A stretch of DNA of 40,510 nt from Balneolaceae bacterium. Its GTDB lineage: Bacteria > Bacteroidota > Rhodothermia > Balneolales > Balneolaceae. The DNA is taken from NCBI GenBank assembly GCA_007693395.1, contig REDS01000190.1:1-40510 (forward strand), given 5' to 3'. Both the position numbers and the translations under genes were made by a program. Each line of letters begins with the position of its first letter. Position 1 is the first letter of the stretch. This document shows, one piece after another, positions 24,170-33,012 of the stretch. The notes under the pieces were generated by a model, which had not been told where the DNA came from, did no database searches, and worked only from the letters and a program-made list of their open reading frames with translations.

Positions 24170-25963
24170 TTAAAAGAACGTAAAGTAGAAGAAGAATACA
24201 GATACAAATAGAAATACTACTGTCATTCCTCCGCCTGCTTTAAAATAGTCTTTGGTTTTGTATCCGCCTGCCGTCATCATCAGGGCGTTTACCTGATGTG
24301 TGGGTAGAATAAACGAATTGCCCGCATTCACGGCTGCTAAAAGCACAAGCGGCCGGGGATCCACACCTGCAATCATACCAATACCAACTACAAGCGGTGC
24401 TAATACAACTACCGCACCCACGTTCGACATAACCAGTGAAAAACCCGTTGCCAGCAACGCTACTGTAAATAACAGCACCAGCAAGTGGCTGCCATCTACC
24501 ACAGTCATCACACTTTCAGCCAGAAATTCGGCTGTTCCGCTATTCTGCATGGCAATACCAAGAGGAATCAAACCCACAAGCAGAAATACCACTTTCCATT
24601 CAATGGCTTTGTACGCATCCTGAATACTCATCACATTGGTTAAAATCATTACAATGGCGCCGGTAAGGAATGAGATGGAGATCGAAAAGCCCGACATCGC
24701 CAGAACAATTGCCAGTAAAAAACTGCCTGCTGCCTGCCAGGTTTTGGCCGGATGCTTCTCTTCAACCGAAAATGGTGTTGCAACCACAAATGGGTCTGTA
24801 CTTTGAAGCCGTTTGATGTGGCTCCAGGGGCCATAAATAATGAACGTATCTCCGGTTTTGATTGTATGATCGGAGAAATCGCCTTCCACCCGTTTTCCGT
24901 CACTAAAGAGCATAATCGGTTCAACGGCATACCGCTTTCGCATGGAGAACTGGCGAATACTTTGCCCAACCAATTCTGATCGCGGGGGTACAATCACTTC
25001 AACAAAACCTGACTCTTCGGGATCATCAAGGTTTTCGAACATCGGGTGAGTTTTTACTGCTTCAAGGTTGTAATCTGCCGCAAATCGGCTCACTCGATCC
25101 TCTTCTCCGTAAAGTGCCATGATCTGGCCATCATTGAACTCTGTTTCGCGCCACGGGGCATAATCAGCGTGCTTTTCGTGAGAGAGTGCAAGTATGTTGA
25201 TATCGTACATGTTCCAGATGCCGGATTGCTCAACGGTTTGATTGACAATCGAACTTCCCTTCGGAATTTTGAAATATCTGATGTCTTTCTTCAGGTTGAA
25301 CGCCTCGATAACTTTTTCCTGCTCGGTTTGCTCAAGCTTGCCATCGGGTGCCCCCTGCGGCAGAAAAAATTTCCCAAAAAAGAGAAAGAATATAATTGCA
25401 GCCACGAGCAAGGCCACACCCACCGGTGTTACAGCAAAAAGGCCATATGGCTCAAGATTAGCTGCTTCCAGAAGATCATTTGTTAGAATCAGGTGGCCGG
25501 AACCAACCATGGTGAGCGTGCCACCAATAATTGCCATAAAACCAATCGGCATAATGAGTACCGATGCAGATACTTTAATTCTTCGTGCGATATCAATTAT
25601 GCTTGGCAGGAAAAGTGCGGCTGCTCCAATATTTTGTATTACACCGGAAAGTGTTCCCACAGAGAGGGAAAGTGACCCAAGAACGGTTGATTTTTTTGTC
25701 CCCACCCGCTTTAGCAGCCACTTGGAAAAACGAGACATCATACCGGTTCGGGCAACACCTTCTCCCAAAATCATAACGGCAATCATAGCCACAACAGCAT
25801 TACTTGAAAACCCTGAAAGTGCCTCGCTGCTTGTTAATATGCCGCTCCAGCTAAGTGCCAGCATGGTGATTATGGCTGTAACATCAATACGCACCTTCTC
25901 TGTAACCAACATAAAGATGGTGAATGCCATTATGGAGAGTACAATAATAATTTCTGTATCCAT
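24170..25963 (-). CDS. SLC13/DASS-family permease with RCK_C (TrkA-C) domains
   Basis: A 597-residue anion permease with about 11-12 membrane helices, interrupted near residues 205-385 by two cytoplasmic TrkA-C type domains (EVIVPPRSELVGQSIRQFSMRKRY marks the second). This layout is typical of the sulfate/thiosulfate/organic-acid branch (CysP/SAC1-like) of the DASS/SLC13 family. Transport motifs include SNAVVAMIAVMILGEG, GTLTMVGSGHLILTNDLL and, near the end, NAGNSFILPTHQVNALMM. It is 15 bp downstream of sulP, so the two permeases are cotranscribed. Sulfate or thiosulfate is the probable substrate from context. Confidence 0.9.
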   Translation of the reverse strand: MDTEIIIVLSIMAFTIFMLVTEKVRIDVTAIITMLALSWSGILTSSEALSGFSSNAVVAMIAVMILGEGVARTGMMSRFSKWLLKRVGTKKSTVLGSLSLSVGTLSGVIQNIGAAALFLPSIIDIARRIKVSASVLIMPIGFMAIIGGTLTMVGSGHLILTNDLLEAANLEPYGLFAVTPVGVALLVAAIIFFLFFGKFFLPQGAPDGKLEQTEQEKVIEAFNLKKDIRYFKIPKGSSIVNQTVEQSGIWNMYDINILALSHEKHADYAPWRETEFNDGQIMALYGEEDRVSRFAADYNLEAVKTHPMFENLDDPEESGFVEVIVPPRSELVGQSIRQFSMRKRYAVEPIMLFSDGKRVEGDFSDHTIKTGDTFIIYGPWSHIKRLQSTDPFVVATPFSVEEKHPAKTWQAAGSFLLAIVLAMSGFSISISFLTGAIVMILTNVMSIQDAYKAIEWKVVFLLVGLIPLGIAMQNSGTAEFLAESVMTVVDGSHLLVLLFTVALLATGFSLVMSNVGAVVVLAPLVVGIGMIAGVDPRPLVLLAAVNAGNSFILPTHQVNALMMTAGGYKTKDYFKAGGGMTVVFLFVSVFFFYFTFF

Positions 25964-25978
25964 CGCTTTTAATTTCCT

Positions 25979-27700
25979 CTATTTGGTATCGAGATGAATG
26001 GTATATGTTGTTTCATTTTCCTTTTTTTCACTGTCTGAGAAAGACATTATGGCATCCTCTATCTGCATATAAAATGTCCACTCTTTGTCTGTATTTGAAC
26101 TTGATTTAAGCATGTCGCGAACGGGCGCTTTAACCTCGGCAAGCTTAACTGCTATTTTTTTCTCTCCGAGGTCTTTCATGGTTTCCAGAAGTTCATCGAG
26201 TCCGGTAGAATCGATCTCATTTACACCGTTTAGATCAAGGACCATGCATGCTGTACCCGACCTCTCGATTATGAGCTCATTTACTTTTTCTCTGAAATAT
26301 TCTGCGTTGGCAAAGTGCAGAGGGGCATCAAATCTAAATACCACCACATCAGGATCTTGCTCGGTTTCGTATCTCTTTATACTTCTGTAAACCGAAGTGC
26401 CCGGTATTTTCCCGATAACGGCATGATTTGGCCTTGCTGACCGATAGAGCAGCATGATTACCGAAAGGGTTACCCCAAGCAAAATACCCTCTTTAATTCC
26501 AACAAATAGGGTGCCGGCAAATGTTGCCAGAAACATGTAGCGGTCGTAATGGCCAATCTTCCAGAGGCGTTTAAACTCCTTGTAATCAATCAATCCAAAC
26601 ACGGCTACAATAATGATCGCACCCAGCACAGCATTTGGCAGATAATAGAAGAGAGGAGTTAAAAACAGCAGGGTTACCGCTACTACTGCCGCACTAATTA
26701 AACCGGTAATACCGGTTTTTGCCCCTGTTTCGTAATTAATAGCGGTTCGGGAAAAGCTACCTGTTACAGGAAATGCCTGAAATAACGAACCGCCAATATT
26801 TGCTGCACCCAAAGCTATAAGCTCTTTGTTCGAATTAATTTTATACTCTTTCGATTTTTGCTGGATTGCTTTCCCTACAGCAATCGATTCCATAAATGCT
26901 ACGAGCGCAATCGCCACAGCCATAGGCATTAATTGCATGATGGTTACCCATTCGATGGCAGGCATTACAAGAGCGGGCAACCCTCTGTTGATTTCTCCAA
27001 CCACTGCTACTCCGGCTTCATGTAGACCTGTTAAATAGATAAAAAGAATGCCTGCAGCCACGGCAAGAACCGGCCCGGGCAAAGCCGGGAGTTTTTTCTT
27101 TGCAAAAACGATCAGCGCGATGGCTCCGGCACCGGTTGCAAGGGTTAATACATTCAGGTCAGACACCTGTAGTGCAATACCGTACAAAATATCATGCAGG
27201 CCGCCTGTTACGGAACCAACTCCAAGAATATGGTGCAGCTGGCTCAAGCCAATAATTATGGCAGCGGCCGACACAAAACCGGAGAGTACCGGGTGGGATA
27301 AAAGGTTCACCAGAAAACCCATTCGCATCAATCCGAATGAGAACTGAAGAACACCTACCATTAATGCAAGCAAAATACTAAGTGCTATATACTCATCAGG
27401 TGTTTCTGCAATAGGGGCTACAGCTGAAGCAACCAACAGGGCAATCAATGCAACGGGGCCTATTCCCAAATGCTTCGAGGTGCCAAGAAAAGCATAGATA
27501 AGCAGGGGAACTACCGATGCATATAAACCATACTGTGGAGGTAAACCCGCAATTAGTGCATATGCCATTCCCTGTGGGATCAACATCACACCAACGGTTA
27601 GTCCCGCGCTCAAATCACCTTTAAATTTTTCCCTGCTGTATGTTGCAACATCCTGCAAAAGAGGGAAAATCTGATTGATATGATATTTTAGAGAGTTCAA
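25979..27700 (-). CDS. SulP family anion permease with STAS domain
   Basis: A 573-residue SLC26/SulP permease. The N-terminal membrane domain starts with DLSAGLTVGVMLIPQGMAYALIAGLPPQYGLYA, the sulfate-transporter signature, followed by about 12-14 helices. A C-terminal STAS domain (about 435-560) has a DSTG motif with Ser498, as in anti-sigma-antagonist folds. Substrates in this family include sulfate, bicarbonate and dicarboxylates. There is no in-frame ATG before the signature, so a TTG at 27700 is the best available start. It heads the sulP-SLC13-rhodanese-carbonic anhydrase series, 183 bp after the CstB-like gene. Confidence 0.92.
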   Translation of the reverse strand: MNSLKYHINQIFPLLQDVATYSREKFKGDLSAGLTVGVMLIPQGMAYALIAGLPPQYGLYASVVPLLIYAFLGTSKHLGIGPVALIALLVASAVAPIAETPDEYIALSILLALMVGVLQFSFGLMRMGFLVNLLSHPVLSGFVSAAAIIIGLSQLHHILGVGSVTGGLHDILYGIALQVSDLNVLTLATGAGAIALIVFAKKKLPALPGPVLAVAAGILFIYLTGLHEAGVAVVGEINRGLPALVMPAIEWVTIMQLMPMAVAIALVAFMESIAVGKAIQQKSKEYKINSNKELIALGAANIGGSLFQAFPVTGSFSRTAINYETGAKTGITGLISAAVVAVTLLFLTPLFYYLPNAVLGAIIIVAVFGLIDYKEFKRLWKIGHYDRYMFLATFAGTLFVGIKEGILLGVTLSVIMLLYRSARPNHAVIGKIPGTSVYRSIKRYETEQDPDVVVFRFDAPLHFANAEYFREKVNELIIERSGTACMVLDLNGVNEIDSTGLDELLETMKDLGEKKIAVKLAEVKAPVRDMLKSSSNTDKEWTFYMQIEDAIMSFSDSEKKENETTYTIHLDTK

Positions 27701-27883: not shown

Positions 27884-29290
27884 TTATGCTGTTTGAAGCT
27901 TATTGTAGTTTGCGAATTCATCTTCAACCAGTGCTACATTGAATCCGTCTCTCTTCAACAGGGCAGCTGCAACCGCTGAGCGCCCGCCTGACTGGCAATG
28001 CACGAAGAACTTCTTATCTCTTGGCAGTTCCTCTTTTCTTGGAAGAAGTCTTGTATGTGCATAGTTTAATGCGCCCTCTACGTGTGCTTCTTCAAACTCA
28101 GAACCTTTACGTACGTCAAGTACAATTTCGCCTTCCTTCAGCCCGGTGATATCTTCGAACGTTACTGTTTCCAGTTTATCGAATGCACCGTCTTGCTCTT
28201 TGTAGATCTGAAGGTCTCTCGGTGTTACATATCCGGCTACGTTATCGAGGCCGATGTTGTAAAGGTCGAGAACGGCTTCCTTTACCTGATGTTCGTTCAC
28301 TATCAGATAGATCTCTTCATCTTCTGTGATGTAAGAACCTGCAACTGTGTTGAACTGCTTGTTTAGCGGAGAGAGCAGTGAACCGGGAATATGGCCTGCT
28401 GCAAACTCATTTCTTTCGCGAGTATCAAGAAGTACAGTGTTCTCTTTACCTGCAAGGCCTTTCAACTCTTTGATTGTTAGCCTTTTTGGCTGTGGCATTC
28501 CACCAATAAGCGCGGGCCCAATCTTGTTATCCCGCTTCATTCTTGCGAAATAGAGTGGCGGCTCAGGCTGGCCTTCAAGTATAAACTTCACAAAATTATC
28601 TTCTGATGAAGCTGACTTCAATGAGTTGTTATATTTCAGCTCATAACCAACTGTAGTTTTTGGTATTGCACCAAGTGCTTTACCACATGCACTACCGGCA
28701 CCATGGCCTGGCCAGATCTGCATGTACTCTGGCATATTTTTGAAAGCTTCTACTGTTTTGAAAAGTGTTCGTGCTGATGGTTCCATAACATCTGCCATTC
28801 CTGCAGCAGATTCAAGAAGATCAGGGCGGCCAACATCGCCTACGAATACAAAATCTCCGGTTGCCATTCCCATTGGCTCATTTGCCGCTGCACCGTCTGT
28901 AACAAGGAAGGTTAAATGTTCAGGTGTATGGCCCGGTGTATGCCACGCTTTAATGGTGATGTTTCCAATTTTGAATTCATCTCCATCATGCATCAGCTCA
29001 TAGTCATAGTCGCTGCCAATGAGCCACTCATACTTCCAGTCTGCATCTCCTTCATCTGATGCATAAACCTTTACACCTCTTTCAGCAAATTCACGAAGGC
29101 CAGAGATGTAGTCAGCATGGATGTGGGTATCTGCTGCTGCAACAATGGTAAGATTCTGTTTTGCTGCATGGTCAATATACTGATCGATGTCTCTCATCGG
29201 ATCAATTACTACTGCTGTACCATTGGCCTGGCAGCCGATTAAGTATGCGTATTGTGCGAGTTTTTCGTCAAAGAATTGTTTGAAATACAT
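27884..29290 (-). CDS. CstB-like persulfide dioxygenase-rhodanese fusion
   Basis: A 468-residue three-domain protein matching CstB of Staphylococcus: an MBL-fold persulfide dioxygenase, an inactive rhodanese and an active rhodanese. The MBL domain (about 1-245) shows THIHADY at 55-61 (metal ligands His56, His58), TPGHTPEH with His121, Asp152 in GDVGRPDL and His196 in WPGHGAGSACGK. Tyr61 replaces the second His of the canonical HxHxDH, as in several CstB/ETHE1 relatives. The first rhodanese (about 270-365) lacks the active cysteine (IYLIVNEHQ). The second (about 375-465) has Cys432 in VHCQSGGRSA. Expected reaction: oxidation of low-molecular-weight persulfide to sulfite and then thiosulfate. 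It follows the two YeeE genes by 48 bp. Confidence 0.92.
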   Translation of the reverse strand: MYFKQFFDEKLAQYAYLIGCQANGTAVVIDPMRDIDQYIDHAAKQNLTIVAAADTHIHADYISGLREFAERGVKVYASDEGDADWKYEWLIGSDYDYELMHDGDEFKIGNITIKAWHTPGHTPEHLTFLVTDGAAANEPMGMATGDFVFVGDVGRPDLLESAAGMADVMEPSARTLFKTVEAFKNMPEYMQIWPGHGAGSACGKALGAIPKTTVGYELKYNNSLKSASSEDNFVKFILEGQPEPPLYFARMKRDNKIGPALIGGMPQPKRLTIKELKGLAGKENTVLLDTRERNEFAAGHIPGSLLSPLNKQFNTVAGSYITEDEEIYLIVNEHQVKEAVLDLYNIGLDNVAGYVTPRDLQIYKEQDGAFDKLETVTFEDITGLKEGEIVLDVRKGSEFEEAHVEGALNYAHTRLLPRKEELPRDKKFFVHCQSGGRSAVAAALLKRDGFNVALVEDEFANYNKLQTA

Positions 29291-29338: not shown

Positions 29339-29764
29339 TTAGTGAGGTAATTTGTCTCTCAGTAAGCCATAGGTATAGGTGCCTGCAAGTGCGGCAAGAA
29401 TTGGAATCACCATGATGGTAAGCCCGCTTCCAAGCAGTGCAAACATCGGGCCGGGGCATGCCCCGAGAAGTGCCCAACCAAGGCCAAACATTGAGCCACC
29501 AATCAGGTATCGTTTTACCTGCGATGCATCTTTAGGGGGAATCGAAATAGGATTGCCCTGTGCATCTTTCATATTATTTCGTTTGATGATCTGAACAGAA
29601 ATAATACCGACAACTACTGCAAGGCCGATAATTCCGTACATGTGAAATGCATCAAACCGAAACATCTCCTGGATTCTGAACCAGGATACCACTTCTGATT
29701 TCATCAGCACAAAACCAAACGCCGTGCCGATCAATAAATATTTTAGATATTCTGAAAATTTCAT
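29339..29764 (-). CDS. YeeE/YedE family sulfur transporter, second half-size subunit (DUF6691 type)
   Basis: A 141-residue membrane protein with about four helices and the family signature GLGWALLGACPGPMFALLGSG, whose cysteine lies in GACPGP. YeeE/TsuA proteins carry thiosulfate or sulfane sulfur through conserved-cysteine relays; full-length forms are about 350 residues. Here the protein is split into two genes, this one corresponding to the C-terminal half. It follows the 187-residue partner by 13 bp and precedes the CstB-like gene by 48 bp, so import of sulfur compounds is tied to persulfide oxidation. Cargo is inferred from the family and context. Confidence 0.88.
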   Translation of the reverse strand: MKFSEYLKYLLIGTAFGFVLMKSEVVSWFRIQEMFRFDAFHMYGIIGLAVVVGIISVQIIKRNNMKDAQGNPISIPPKDASQVKRYLIGGSMFGLGWALLGACPGPMFALLGSGLTIMVIPILAALAGTYTYGLLRDKLPH

Positions 29765-29777
29765 AGCTGATTGCTGT

Positions 29778-30341
29778 TTAGGATAAGATGATTGGATAGA
29801 TGAACCATGTCATAAGCAGGCCGCCGATAAAGAAACCGATTACCGCTATGAGTGATGCAAGCTGTAGGTCAGACAAGCCGGAAATAGCATGACCTGATGT
29901 ACAGCCACCGGCATAACGTGCGCCAAAGCCTACCAAAAAACCGCCCAAAATAAGCACGATTAATCCCGGCACAGTCCCCAAAGCACCCCAGGTAAAGAGA
30001 TCATCCGGCACAAGGCCATTAAAATCCTGAATACCCATTGCCTGCAAATCTGCAATTGTAGATTGTGCCAATGCAATTGGCTCGGGATTGGCAAATACAA
30101 AGCCGCCTAAAAAACCGCCTAAAACTGAACCAACTAAAAATGTAATGTTCCATTTACCGGCTTTTTTCCAGTCGTAATTAAAGAACTCTACATTGCCAAA
30201 GTTGCATGCGGCGCAGGCGTGCCGAAGATTGGCTGATACACCAAACATCTTGCCGCCCAGCAGCAGAAGAACCGGTACTGTTAACCCGATAATGGGGCCG
30301 GCCACGTACCAGGGCCAGGGTTGATATAGAATGTCAAACAT
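29778..30341 (-). CDS. YeeE/YedE family sulfur transporter, first half-size subunit
   Basis: A 187-residue membrane protein with about five helices. It has the YeeE motif GARYAGGCTSGHAISGLSDLQ near residues 139-159, which carries the conserved transport cysteine, and a periplasm-facing loop with CAACNFGNVEFF near 42-53. With the 141-residue gene after it, the pair makes the split form of the thiosulfate/sulfane sulfur transporter. The promoter and operator at 30378-30417 lie directly upstream, so it is the first gene of the yeeE-yeeE-cstB transcript. Confidence 0.9.
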   Translation of the reverse strand: MFDILYQPWPWYVAGPIIGLTVPVLLLLGGKMFGVSANLRHACAACNFGNVEFFNYDWKKAGKWNITFLVGSVLGGFLGGFVFANPEPIALAQSTIADLQAMGIQDFNGLVPDDLFTWGALGTVPGLIVLILGGFLVGFGARYAGGCTSGHAISGLSDLQLASLIAVIGFFIGGLLMTWFIYPIILS

Positions 30342-30377: not shown

Positions 30378-30406
30378 AATATATAACAAATGTTACTACT
30401 TGTCAA
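30378..30406 (-). promoter_or_regulatory. Sigma70-type promoter of the yeeE-yeeE-cstB operon
   Basis: On the minus strand TTGACA (30401-30406) and TATATT (30378-30383) are separated by exactly 17 bp. The start codon at 30341 is about 37 bp further on. The -35 box lies inside the operator palindrome at 30394-30417, a position that suits repression by a bound dimer. This is a sequence-based prediction. Confidence 0.65.
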
Positions 30407-30417
30407 TACAAGTAGTA
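30394..30417. promoter_or_regulatory. Operator palindrome, site 1
   Basis: A perfect inverted repeat, arms TACTACTTGT (30394-30403) and ACAAGTAGTA (30408-30417), around CAAT. Its 16-bp core ACTTGTCAATACAAGT (30398-30413) is matched at 14 of 16 positions by site 2 in the sqr-gntR intergenic region. The ACTTGT-N4-ACAAGT layout is like that of GntR/HutC-subfamily operators such as those of NagR/DasR. It overlaps the -35 box before yeeE. Confidence 0.72.
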
Positions 30418-30425
30418 TTGTTTTC

Positions 30426-31685
30426 TTATGCTCTTCCTTTAAGCATTCCCTCCCAATACATTATGGGGAGTAAATCTTTCTTCATATGATACATCGATCG
30501 CCTCTCTTTCATCTGATTGATAGGAAAAGAGGGCGTTATTTTGTTGTTGTAATCGAATTCTGCGAGTATCAGCTTACCAAAACCTGTTATCAACGGGCAA
30601 GAACCATAGCCATCATAGGATAGAGATGTATCGATCTTACCTGATTTAAGCAGTGATACCAAATTGCCGGTAACCACGCGAGACTGCTTACGTACAGCAG
30701 CTCCGGTTTTCGCATTTGGTGTACTGCCTGCGTCACCCAGAGAAAATATGTTCGGAAATTTATTATGCTGCATGCTATGTTTATCCACATCAACCCATCC
30801 TTCCGAATCTGCAAGCGGACTATTTTTGATAAAGTCTGGTGAGCTTTGCGGGGGAGTTACATGAAGAAGATCAAATTTAATCTCTGTTTGATCTACAACT
30901 TTTCCATCCTTGTAGATATCGTAAACTGCAATTTTTTCGTCTGCTTTAACAGCTATCAAATTGTGAAAGAATTTTGGCTCTACTCCATACCGCTTTACAA
31001 CAGGGCCAAGTGCTTCTGCCACTTCCTTCACCCCAAAGATTACCGATCCGCCAGTTGTGAATTGCACATTAATGTTACCCAGATCGCCACGCTTTTTCCA
31101 CGTATCTGACGCGAGGTACATAATTTTCTGAGGCGCTCCTCCACACTTAAATTTAGTGTTTGGCTGTGTGAATAGTGCAGTTCCGCTCTTCAAATTTTTA
31201 ATACACTCTTCTGTATAGTCGAGGCTTCTGTAGGAATAAATGCTGCAAATTCCGTTTGTGCCAATGCTTTCTGCAAGTCCATCAACTTTATCCCAATCTA
31301 TTTGAATGCCGGGTGCAACCACAAGGTATTCGTAAGAAATCATTCTGCCACCTGCTGTTGAAACTGTGTTAGCATCCGGATTGAAAGACACAACACTATC
31401 TTTTATCCATGCTACATCTTTCGGCACCACCTCTTCCATCAGTTTTTTCGACTTCTCTTTTTCGAAAACTCCGGCTGCATTAAACGTCCACACCGGCTGA
31501 TAGTAATGAACTTCAGAAGGCTCGATAATGGCTATATCGTGGTTAGATAATTTATTTTTCAATTGAGCGGCAACAGTAATACCTGCCGAACCACCGCCCA
31601 CAATCAGAATTTGATGGTGAGTTGTAAATGGCACTGTTTTTTTCTCATCAACATTCTTCCCTGATACCGTATATAATTTCTTCAT
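30426..31685 (-). CDS. sqr: Sulfide:quinone oxidoreductase, type II-like
   Basis: A 419-residue FAD-dependent membrane-associated enzyme that oxidises sulfide to persulfide/sulfane sulfur and passes electrons to quinone. The N-terminal dinucleotide fold shows LIVGGGSAGI (27-36), and a second fold lies near 170-330, with NIFSLGDAGSTPNAKTGAA for FAD. The two redox cysteines are Cys181 in KCGGAPQK and Cys363 in GYGSCPLITGFGK, as in the type II group that includes mitochondrial SQOR. The C-terminal amphipathic stretch (about 400-419) fits membrane attachment. It is divergent from gntR, and the operator at 31732-31747 lies in the shared promoter region. Confidence 0.93.
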   Translation of the reverse strand: MKKLYTVSGKNVDEKKTVPFTTHHQILIVGGGSAGITVAAQLKNKLSNHDIAIIEPSEVHYYQPVWTFNAAGVFEKEKSKKLMEEVVPKDVAWIKDSVVSFNPDANTVSTAGGRMISYEYLVVAPGIQIDWDKVDGLAESIGTNGICSIYSYRSLDYTEECIKNLKSGTALFTQPNTKFKCGGAPQKIMYLASDTWKKRGDLGNINVQFTTGGSVIFGVKEVAEALGPVVKRYGVEPKFFHNLIAVKADEKIAVYDIYKDGKVVDQTEIKFDLLHVTPPQSSPDFIKNSPLADSEGWVDVDKHSMQHNKFPNIFSLGDAGSTPNAKTGAAVRKQSRVVTGNLVSLLKSGKIDTSLSYDGYGSCPLITGFGKLILAEFDYNNKITPSFPINQMKERRSMYHMKKDLLPIMYWEGMLKGRA

Positions 31686-31731
31686 GATTTTATTGATTAC
31701 TTAGTTTTATTCAATCAAGATAATTAGCTTT

Positions 31732-31747
31732 ACATGTAAATACAAGT
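31732..31747. promoter_or_regulatory. Operator palindrome, site 2 (sqr-gntR intergenic)
   Basis: ACATGTAAATACAAGT matches the core of site 1 (ACTTGTCAATACAAGT) at 14 of 16 positions, with one mismatch in the left half-site. It lies between the divergent sqr (start 31685) and gntR (start 31798). One bound dimer could control both, giving regulation of sqr and autoregulation of gntR. Confidence 0.68.
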
Positions 31748-31797
31748 ATTGTTGTTTTGTACTTTTCTTCGTACATTCAAATAAAAATTTTCGTTAC

Positions 31798-32583
31798 ATG
31801 ATTTTAAAAGAAGGTATTCCACGCCACATTCAAATCTCACAATGGCTCCGCCAACAAATTGATGCAGGTACTTTTAAACCCGAAGAAAAGCTTCCCTCAG
31901 AGAATGATCTTGCCACAAAATTTGATGTTAGCCGTGTAACAGTGCGCCGGGCCTTACAGTCGCTTGAAAGTGAATCCATTATTTATCGCTGCCAGGGGCT
32001 TGGCTCTTTTGTTAGCGATAGCCGTGTTTCACAAAATCTTGTAAAGCTTACAGACTTTAATGAAGATATGTCGCAGGCAGGGTTAAGCGCTTCATCAGAA
32101 GTGAAGCTCTTTACAACAGTTGATGCCCCCGACTGGCTTGCTGAACTTCTTCAGATTGAACCCGGAAATAAAGTGTTACAGGTAGACCGCCTTCGTAAAG
32201 GAGATGGTGAGCCGATTGCTTTCGACAGCACCTGGTTACCCATTTTTTACGGTCAGCTTCTCGACGAGAAAAAGCTGCAAGACTCTACCATTTACGATCT
32301 TCTCGAGCAAGACTACGACATCTCTGTTATAAAAGGTTGTTACAGAATGTCGGCCGAAGCTGCTGACGATCATCTTGCTGAAGAGCTAAACGTACAACTG
32401 GGGTCACCCCTGTTTTTAATCGACAGAATTACATACACCATCGGCAGCAAACCACTCTATTACCAAAAACGCTATTACCGAAACGACAAAGTAATCTACG
32501 AAATGACCCTTGAACGCTCCGCAGATAGCACCCCTGGCGACAATATGCCACTCAAAGAGTTCACCCCAATTTTTAAATCATAG
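31798..32583 (+). CDS. GntR-family regulator, HutC subfamily (UTRA domain)
   Basis: A 261-residue transcription factor. The N-terminal winged helix (about 5-74) has LPSENDLATKFDVSRVTVRRALQSLE and a wing ending in GLGSFVSD. A UTRA ligand-binding domain follows (about 85-240, with FDSTWLPIFYGQLL and LFLIDRITYTIGSKPLYYQKRYYR). UTRA regulators usually sense small organic ligands. Here the context is sulfide and persulfide oxidation. Two cysteines are present: Cys65 in the wing (YRCQGLGS) where family members normally have Arg or a similar residue, and Cys181 in the UTRA domain. It is divergent from sqr with the palindrome between them, and the DsrE-like gene follows after 9 bp. The ligand is unknown. 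Confidence 0.92.
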   Translation: MILKEGIPRHIQISQWLRQQIDAGTFKPEEKLPSENDLATKFDVSRVTVRRALQSLESESIIYRCQGLGSFVSDSRVSQNLVKLTDFNEDMSQAGLSASSEVKLFTTVDAPDWLAELLQIEPGNKVLQVDRLRKGDGEPIAFDSTWLPIFYGQLLDEKKLQDSTIYDLLEQDYDISVIKGCYRMSAEAADDHLAEELNVQLGSPLFLIDRITYTIGSKPLYYQKRYYRNDKVIYEMTLERSADSTPGDNMPLKEFTPIFKS

Positions 32584-32592
32584 ACTACAAAT

Positions 32593-33012
32593 ATGTATCT
32601 CATTCTAACCTTACTCTCATTAATCATGATTAATCCTGCCGAAAACAGTGCTGCAGAAAGAGAACTTTTCATTGTACTAACATCAGCCGATCAGGAGACC
32701 CAGATGATGGCGATGGTTCTTGCTACACAAACTGCAAATCAAGAGGTACCGGTACGCATTTTACTGTGCAGTGATGCAGGTTATCTGGCGATTGAGGGTA
32801 CCGAATCAAGACAGTTTGAACCAGCAGGCAGATCACCAAAAGAGTTGCTGAACAGCCTCATGCAGAGAGGAGCAACTGTTGAAGTTTGCGGAATATTTCT
32901 GCCCAACCGAGAGCTTACCCAAAACGATCTTATTGAGGGGATTGGGGTGGCAAGCCCGCCTGAAGTTGCTGCATACATGATCAAAGATAGTGTGAGATAC
33001 TTCACGTTTTGA
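32593..33012 (+). CDS. DsrE/DsrF-like protein, probably exported
   Basis: A 139-residue protein of the DsrE/F-like sulfurtransferase fold. A hydrophobic N-terminus with small residues (MYLILTLLSL..., NSAAE near 17-22) suggests export. The core begins ELFIVLTSADQETQMMAMVLA, then VPVRILLCSDAG, then a strand ending in VEVCGIF. Cys99 is at the position of the conserved sulfur-carrying cysteine of DsrE/TusD proteins, and Cys59 is a second one. It lies 9 bp after gntR in the same orientation. Binding of sulfane sulfur is inferred. No other Dsr component is present. Confidence 0.78.
   Translation: MYLILTLLSLIMINPAENSAAERELFIVLTSADQETQMMAMVLATQTANQEVPVRILLCSDAGYLAIEGTESRQFEPAGRSPKELLNSLMQRGATVEVCGIFLPNRELTQNDLIEGIGVASPPEVAAYMIKDSVRYFTF

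Follow-up and report, generated by a model that had tools for sequence, protein, structure and literature searches.

A GntR/UTRA regulator as the predicted autoregulated repressor of a sulfide and persulfide regulon in Balneolaceae

The window analysed here, a 40,510-nucleotide stretch of DNA from a Balneolaceae bacterium, very probably encodes a HutC-type (UTRA) repressor that controls its own gene together with a sulfide/persulfide regulon. The proposed regulon follows, by comparative genomics, from the conservation of an operator, its co-occurrence with the regulator, the existence of unlinked targets and the overlap of the operator with promoters. In the proposed mechanism, a dimer of the GntR/UTRA protein (31798-32583) would bind the palindrome ACWTGT-N4-ACAWGT. 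Occupancy of site 1 would cover the -35 element of the yeeE-yeeE-cstB-sulP-dass promoter and repress it, occupancy of site 2 would cover the -35 element of sqr and abut that of gntR-dsrE to give autoregulation, and a third operator would control an unlinked gene for a DUF302 membrane protein. The operators would be freed by an inducer reporting a surplus of sulfide or reactive sulfur, after which SQR, the CstB-type dioxygenase/rhodanese and the sulfur-anion transporters would be made.

Genes, operators and promoters in the window

The gntR gene (31798-32583, plus strand) encodes a 261-residue GntR/UTRA (HutC-type) regulator recognised by the Pfam GntR and UTRA models, and is followed after 9 bp by a dsrE-like gene (32593-33012, plus strand; Pfam DsrE/DsrF) that is found downstream of gntR in many relatives and is probably co-transcribed with it. 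On the minus strand lie sqr, for a sulfide:quinone oxidoreductase (30426-31685), yeeE part 1 (29778-30341; Sulf_transp, TsuA-like), yeeE part 2 (29339-29764; DUF6691/Sulf_transp), a cstB-like gene for a metallo-beta-lactamase with two rhodanese domains (27884-29290), a SulP-family permease with a STAS domain (25979-27700) and an SLC13/DASS-type anion transporter (24170-25963), with both yeeE parts and the last two genes assigned by profile matches. The initial annotation had set the regulator beside sulfide genes, and the identities of the SQR and CstB-type products are borne out by phmmer matches, at 387 bits to 6mp5/6oi5 for SQR, and at 390 bits to 3tp9 and 354 bits to 3r2u for the CstB-like protein, whose domains are also recognised by Pfam. 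The nearest solved relative of the sqr product is human mitochondrial SQR, and the window SQR is nearer to this mitochondrial type than to other bacterial SQRs in the PDB. On the comparative evidence, SQR and the CstB-type persulfide dioxygenase/rhodanese stand behind one shared predicted operator.

Two 16-mers that agree at 14 of 16 positions, as the initial annotation had described, are present at 30398-30413 (site 1, ACTTGTCAATACAAGT) and at 31732-31747, between sqr and gntR (site 2, ACATGTAAATACAAGT); neither carries a strand assignment. Each palindrome is almost certainly the binding site of the GntR/UTRA repressor, as predicted from sequence, and the ACWTGT-N4-ACAWGT form contains the palindromic GT-N4-AC core that characterises operators of the HutC subfamily (PMC4494728). 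Site 1 lies within an inverted repeat at 30394-30417 that had been called a perfect 24-bp palindrome; its two 10-bp arms are indeed perfect, whereas the CAAT spacer between them is not symmetric. Among 51 relatives, strong conservation is confined to the inner 16 bp of this repeat and the outer 4 bp on each side are lineage-specific. In these genomes the site has an information content of 1.90 bits per position against 0.26 and 0.59 bits in its flanks, and its consensus on the operon strand is ACTTGTATTGACAAGT, with TATaTT 17 bp past TTGACA. Site 2 was aligned across 66 orthologs.

A search of the 3.56-Mb genome for exact ACWTGTN4ACAWGT gave four matches, against none for a reversed control pattern. 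Two of the four occurrences are sites 1 and 2, and a third, on contig C161, lies 23 bp upstream of the unlinked gene for a DUF302 membrane protein (Pfam DUF302). The fourth (C208:32557) falls within a coding ORF and was treated as chance. Looser searches gave no excess: up to three mismatches returned 8 sites in the window against 6.8 expected from shuffles, and one mismatch, in a scan for further targets, returned 22 sites in this genome against 51 for the control. Because the one-mismatch count is at or below control, weak sites are not callable, and significance therefore rests on the exact sites and on their conservation in relatives.

The arrangement of promoters around the two sites points to repression. 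The TTGACA-17-TATATT promoter that had been placed over site 1 is present on the minus strand, with its -35 element (TTGACA, 30401-30406) in a half-site of the operator and its -10 element (TATATT, 30378-30383) after a 17-bp spacer; the TTGACA-N17-TATaTT arrangement, including the -10 element, is conserved in relatives. Also on the minus strand, the putative sqr promoter has a -35-like TTGTAT inside site 2 (31740-31745) and a -10 element, TATCTT (31717-31722), 17 bp away. The putative gntR promoter on the plus strand begins with a -35-like TTGTTG (31749-31754) one base downstream of site 2, followed after 17 bp by TACATT (31772-31777), and the corresponding promoter in relatives has the consensus TTGAT..TA..TT. 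Site 2 thus covers the sqr -35 element and abuts that of gntR-dsrE, so that a single operator would serve two divergent promoters. The sqr -10 element is retained at 12 of 15 loci with sqr, compared with 9 of 36 without it (Fisher p=0.00045). Since mainly the loci with sqr keep this element, the gene, an insertion between the two sites in some members of the genus, most likely draws on the promoter under the site 2 operator. At one locus (L055), the place between the two operators that sqr takes in relatives is filled by an ATPase-like gene of opposite orientation (-1845 to -398).

The location of site 2 just upstream of the gntR -35 element is a position open to activators, and the regulator could in principle activate these promoters. 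This is improbable, as the operator covers the -35 element at both yeeE and sqr, the yeeE -35 element (TTGACA) is already consensus, and repression is the mode of action of NagR and DasR, which are characterised members of the GntR/HutC group (PMC4333415, PMC4918961). Overlap with the -35 elements would thus argue for repression rather than activation.

Conservation of the operator and extent of the regulon

Orthologs of gntR are distributed throughout the order, and the pairing of site and regulator is held in about 80 related salt-loving bacteria. We compared the gene neighbourhoods of 79 gntR orthologs, counting sites with up to one mismatch, and found 3.58 sites per kb in upstream regions compared with 0.007 per kb elsewhere (144 versus 8 sites). 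The initial annotation had staked its proposal on conservation of the palindrome upstream of orthologous sqr or yeeE genes, and this expectation is borne out. At yeeE operons linked to gntR the site is present in 53 of 54 cases, the sole exception (L053) having lost the whole intergenic region, whereas it is found at none of the 12 yeeE operons in genomes without a gntR ortholog (p=3e-12 if independent; since the genomes are related, the counts are non-independent events and p-values, here as for the sqr -10 element, are optimistic). By eye, the gene upstream of two of the regulator-less yeeE operons (L285, L287) resembles a Crp/Fnr-type regulator.

At places unlinked to gntR, matches to the pattern precede a DUF302 gene in many genomes. 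When DUF302 orthologs were gathered regardless of the site (30 loci, six unscorable), the site was present in 12 of 14 genomes with gntR and in none of 8 family genomes without it. Two genomes have gntR and a DUF302 gene lacking the site (L271, L275), and in two genomes with fragmented assemblies (G047, G071) the DUF302 site is present and gntR was not found. The regulon thus connects the unlinked DUF302 gene with the handling of sulfide. Genes that have split off from the gntR locus in relatives also carry operators of their own: the SulP gene in one (L235), the SLC13/DASS gene in two (L237, L239) and the yeeE operon in another (L232). Single genomes have a peroxiredoxin (L222) or a thioredoxin (L234) behind the site.

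An RND efflux operon likewise stands behind the operator in some relatives. As judged by eye, it replaces yeeE-cstB divergently from gntR at L066-L068, L071-L076 and other loci from one group of genera, and likewise at L103 and L104, and encodes outer-membrane, membrane-fusion and RND efflux proteins, mostly together with DUF302-like and PII-like proteins. The regulon first proposed, in which sulfide and persulfide genes share an operator, is accordingly supported in its core and was drawn too narrowly, with sqr only an occasional member; gntR-dsrE, DUF302, SulP and DASS are to be added, along with the RND efflux operon in some relatives.

A+T-rich palindromes are bound by many regulators, and another protein might therefore occupy the site, with gntR a mere neighbour. 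The distribution of the site makes this very improbable. Of 80 gntR orthologs, 77 have it in the 260 bp ahead of the gene; it stays upstream of both gntR and the targets when these are unlinked (L046, L232) and is missing where the regulator is. Moreover, half-sites identical in sequence are found ahead of remote GntR homologs that belong to other phyla and have different neighbours. Those in Proteobacteria (~35% identity) are preceded by ACTTGTTATAACAAGT-like sites, as at L148, L162 and L186. In the Proteobacterial loci checked, genes for a PRK08275-type flavoprotein, a ferredoxin and HEAT-repeat proteins come next, and with such neighbours the idea that these relatives are GlcNAc regulators was dropped.

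Operators of clade B (L091-L109) often consist of three half-sites in 10-bp steps (ACTTGTTACAACATGTTATAACAAGT), equivalent to two overlapping palindromes. This 10-bp spacing of double half-sites agrees with the additional half-sites described for operators of GntR proteins (PMC4494728), and so do divergons with two sites.

The regulator and its candidate inducers

The HutC-type assignment made initially is upheld by Pfam, which places a GntR winged helix at the N-terminus (PF00392, 69.5 bits; cut-off 27) and a UTRA domain at the C-terminus (PF07702, 111 bits; cut-off 23.8). The protein matches no models other than those for GntR, UTRA and general HTH domains, and has no CsoR, ArsR or sigma54-activator domain, and among the NCBIfam equivalogs for named GntR subfamilies the best score (NF041547, 144.5 bits) is below the cut-off of 275. 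The predicted structural model (pLDDT 87) matches the fold of 2wv0, 4wwc and DasR, and the closest solved structures are YvoA/NagR and DasR, the TM-score of the effector-binding domain (EBD) to DasR being about 0.8-0.87.

NagR (YvoA) and DasR are GntR/HutC repressors of GlcNAc genes (PMC4333415, PMC4918961), and the present regulator resembles them in its GntR and UTRA domains, its palindromic operator, its conserved anion-site arginines and its closest solved structures. In NagR, the ligand phosphate is contacted by Arg133, Arg135 and Ser165, and the sugar by Glu145, Tyr228, Glu222, Ala224 and others (PMC4333415). In our alignment, in which the NagR row was transcribed by hand from the printed sequence and its ends were filled in by hand, the phosphate-coordinating R133, R135 and S165 are kept as R131, R133 and T164, whereas the sugar-contacting E145, E222, A224 and S226 become D143, Y221, Q223 and R225. 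Q223 and R225 are both invariant in the two sulfur-linked clades (60 rows of clade A, 19 of clade B). The regulator differs from NagR and DasR, then, in its replaced sugar-contact residues and its sulfur-gene targets, and the features of a GlcNAc repressor are lacking, as the NagR sugar contacts are changed and the targets are sulfur and transport genes with no GlcNAc genes among them.

The retained anion site bears on the nature of the inducer. An anionic sulfur metabolite bound in the UTRA pocket is ranked the most likely of the inducer modes, ahead of cysteine modification in the DNA-binding domain and of a non-sulfur ligand, and is advanced tentatively. The preserved phosphate-coordinating residues would also suit a real regulon with a non-sulfur inducer, in which a phosphorylated metabolite is sensed as in NagR and DasR and sulfur metabolism is coupled to carbon status; the Rhodothermales-type sister lineage, which shares the pocket signature near moeA-like and pgi-like genes (by eye), lends this some support. 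We consider it unlikely, since the sugar contacts are replaced by residues that include the invariant Q223 and R225, the recurrent targets in the Balneolaceae clades are all sulfur or transport genes, and none of the sites in the Balneolaceae loci compared has a sugar catabolic gene behind it. In the sister lineage itself (L131-L135, L139, L143), the pocket signature mostly occurs without the operator, and genes resembling moeA and pgi are nearby in several loci, as judged by eye.

Modification of a cysteine by a reactive sulfur species could alternatively free the operator, acting on Cys65 in clade A or Cys39 in clade B. Cys65 is present in 57 of 60 clade A orthologs, Cys39 takes its place in L062 and L064, and position 65 is Lys in clade B, where Cys39 is found in 19 of 19. 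One or the other thus occurs in nearly all sulfur-linked orthologs, whereas both are missing from most of the non-sulfur sister lineage, and BigR offers a precedent in that it works through a sensing dithiol pair (PMC7315123). Such a thiol switch is nonetheless doubtful, if somewhat less so than a non-sulfur inducer. Two orthologs (L065, L090) lack both cysteines and yet retain the sites and the sulfur operon, the second cysteine, Cys181, is present in 43 of 60 clade A orthologs and is often Ser or Thr, and the tree shows only eight state changes, which are subject to effects of lineage. Cys65 and Cys181 had been considered as an invariant redox pair, which was rejected because the pair is not invariant; nor is any other feature specific to sulfur sensing. 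In clade B, Cys39 and Cys211 are invariant, and Cys39 and Cys65 alternate between lineages. Taking the two sulfur-based modes together, it is reasonably likely that the HutC-type repressor senses sulfur species directly, either as a sulfur anion bound in the remodelled NagR-like pocket (R131, R133, T164, Q223, R225) or as a persulfide that acts on Cys65 or Cys39, which can stand in for each other in the DNA-binding domain.

Relation to known sulfide regulators

The sulfide and persulfide regulons described to date rely on CsoR-, ArsR- and FisR-type sensors, with side roles for MarR and OxyR, and in the open-licence literature no published case was found that ties a GntR/UTRA protein to sulfide, YeeE, SQR or persulfide. 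FisR and SqrR likewise control sqr and genes for persulfide dioxygenases, yet neither belongs to the GntR family: FisR is a sigma54 activator and SqrR is of the ArsR type. The BigR/yeeE-yedE-pdo2 system of Acinetobacter baumannii has a very similar gene set, with two YeeE/YedE proteins and a persulfide dioxygenase (PMC7315123), but BigR belongs to the ArsR family and senses through the pair C34 and C100, whereas the regulator here is of the GntR/UTRA type with another operator and no invariant cysteine pair. CstR of the Staphylococcus aureus cst operon likewise controls genes for a CstB-type MBL/rhodanese protein and SQR (PMC5480029), and the window CstB matches PDB 3r2u strongly; CstR, however, is a CsoR-family protein whose DNA-binding fold and sensing chemistry are unrelated to those of GntR/UTRA. 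By gene content, the best reading is that the regulator would fill the slot held elsewhere by BigR, CstR or FisR, and it may serve as a sulfide/persulfide sensor.

The sulfur physiology of Balneolaceae has been little studied. The regulator is widespread in this family. Given its exact operators, the defined regulon and the two candidate modes of sensing, a small number of experiments could place a new sensor family. If this protein does sense sulfur directly, the GntR family would join the known sensors of reactive sulfur.
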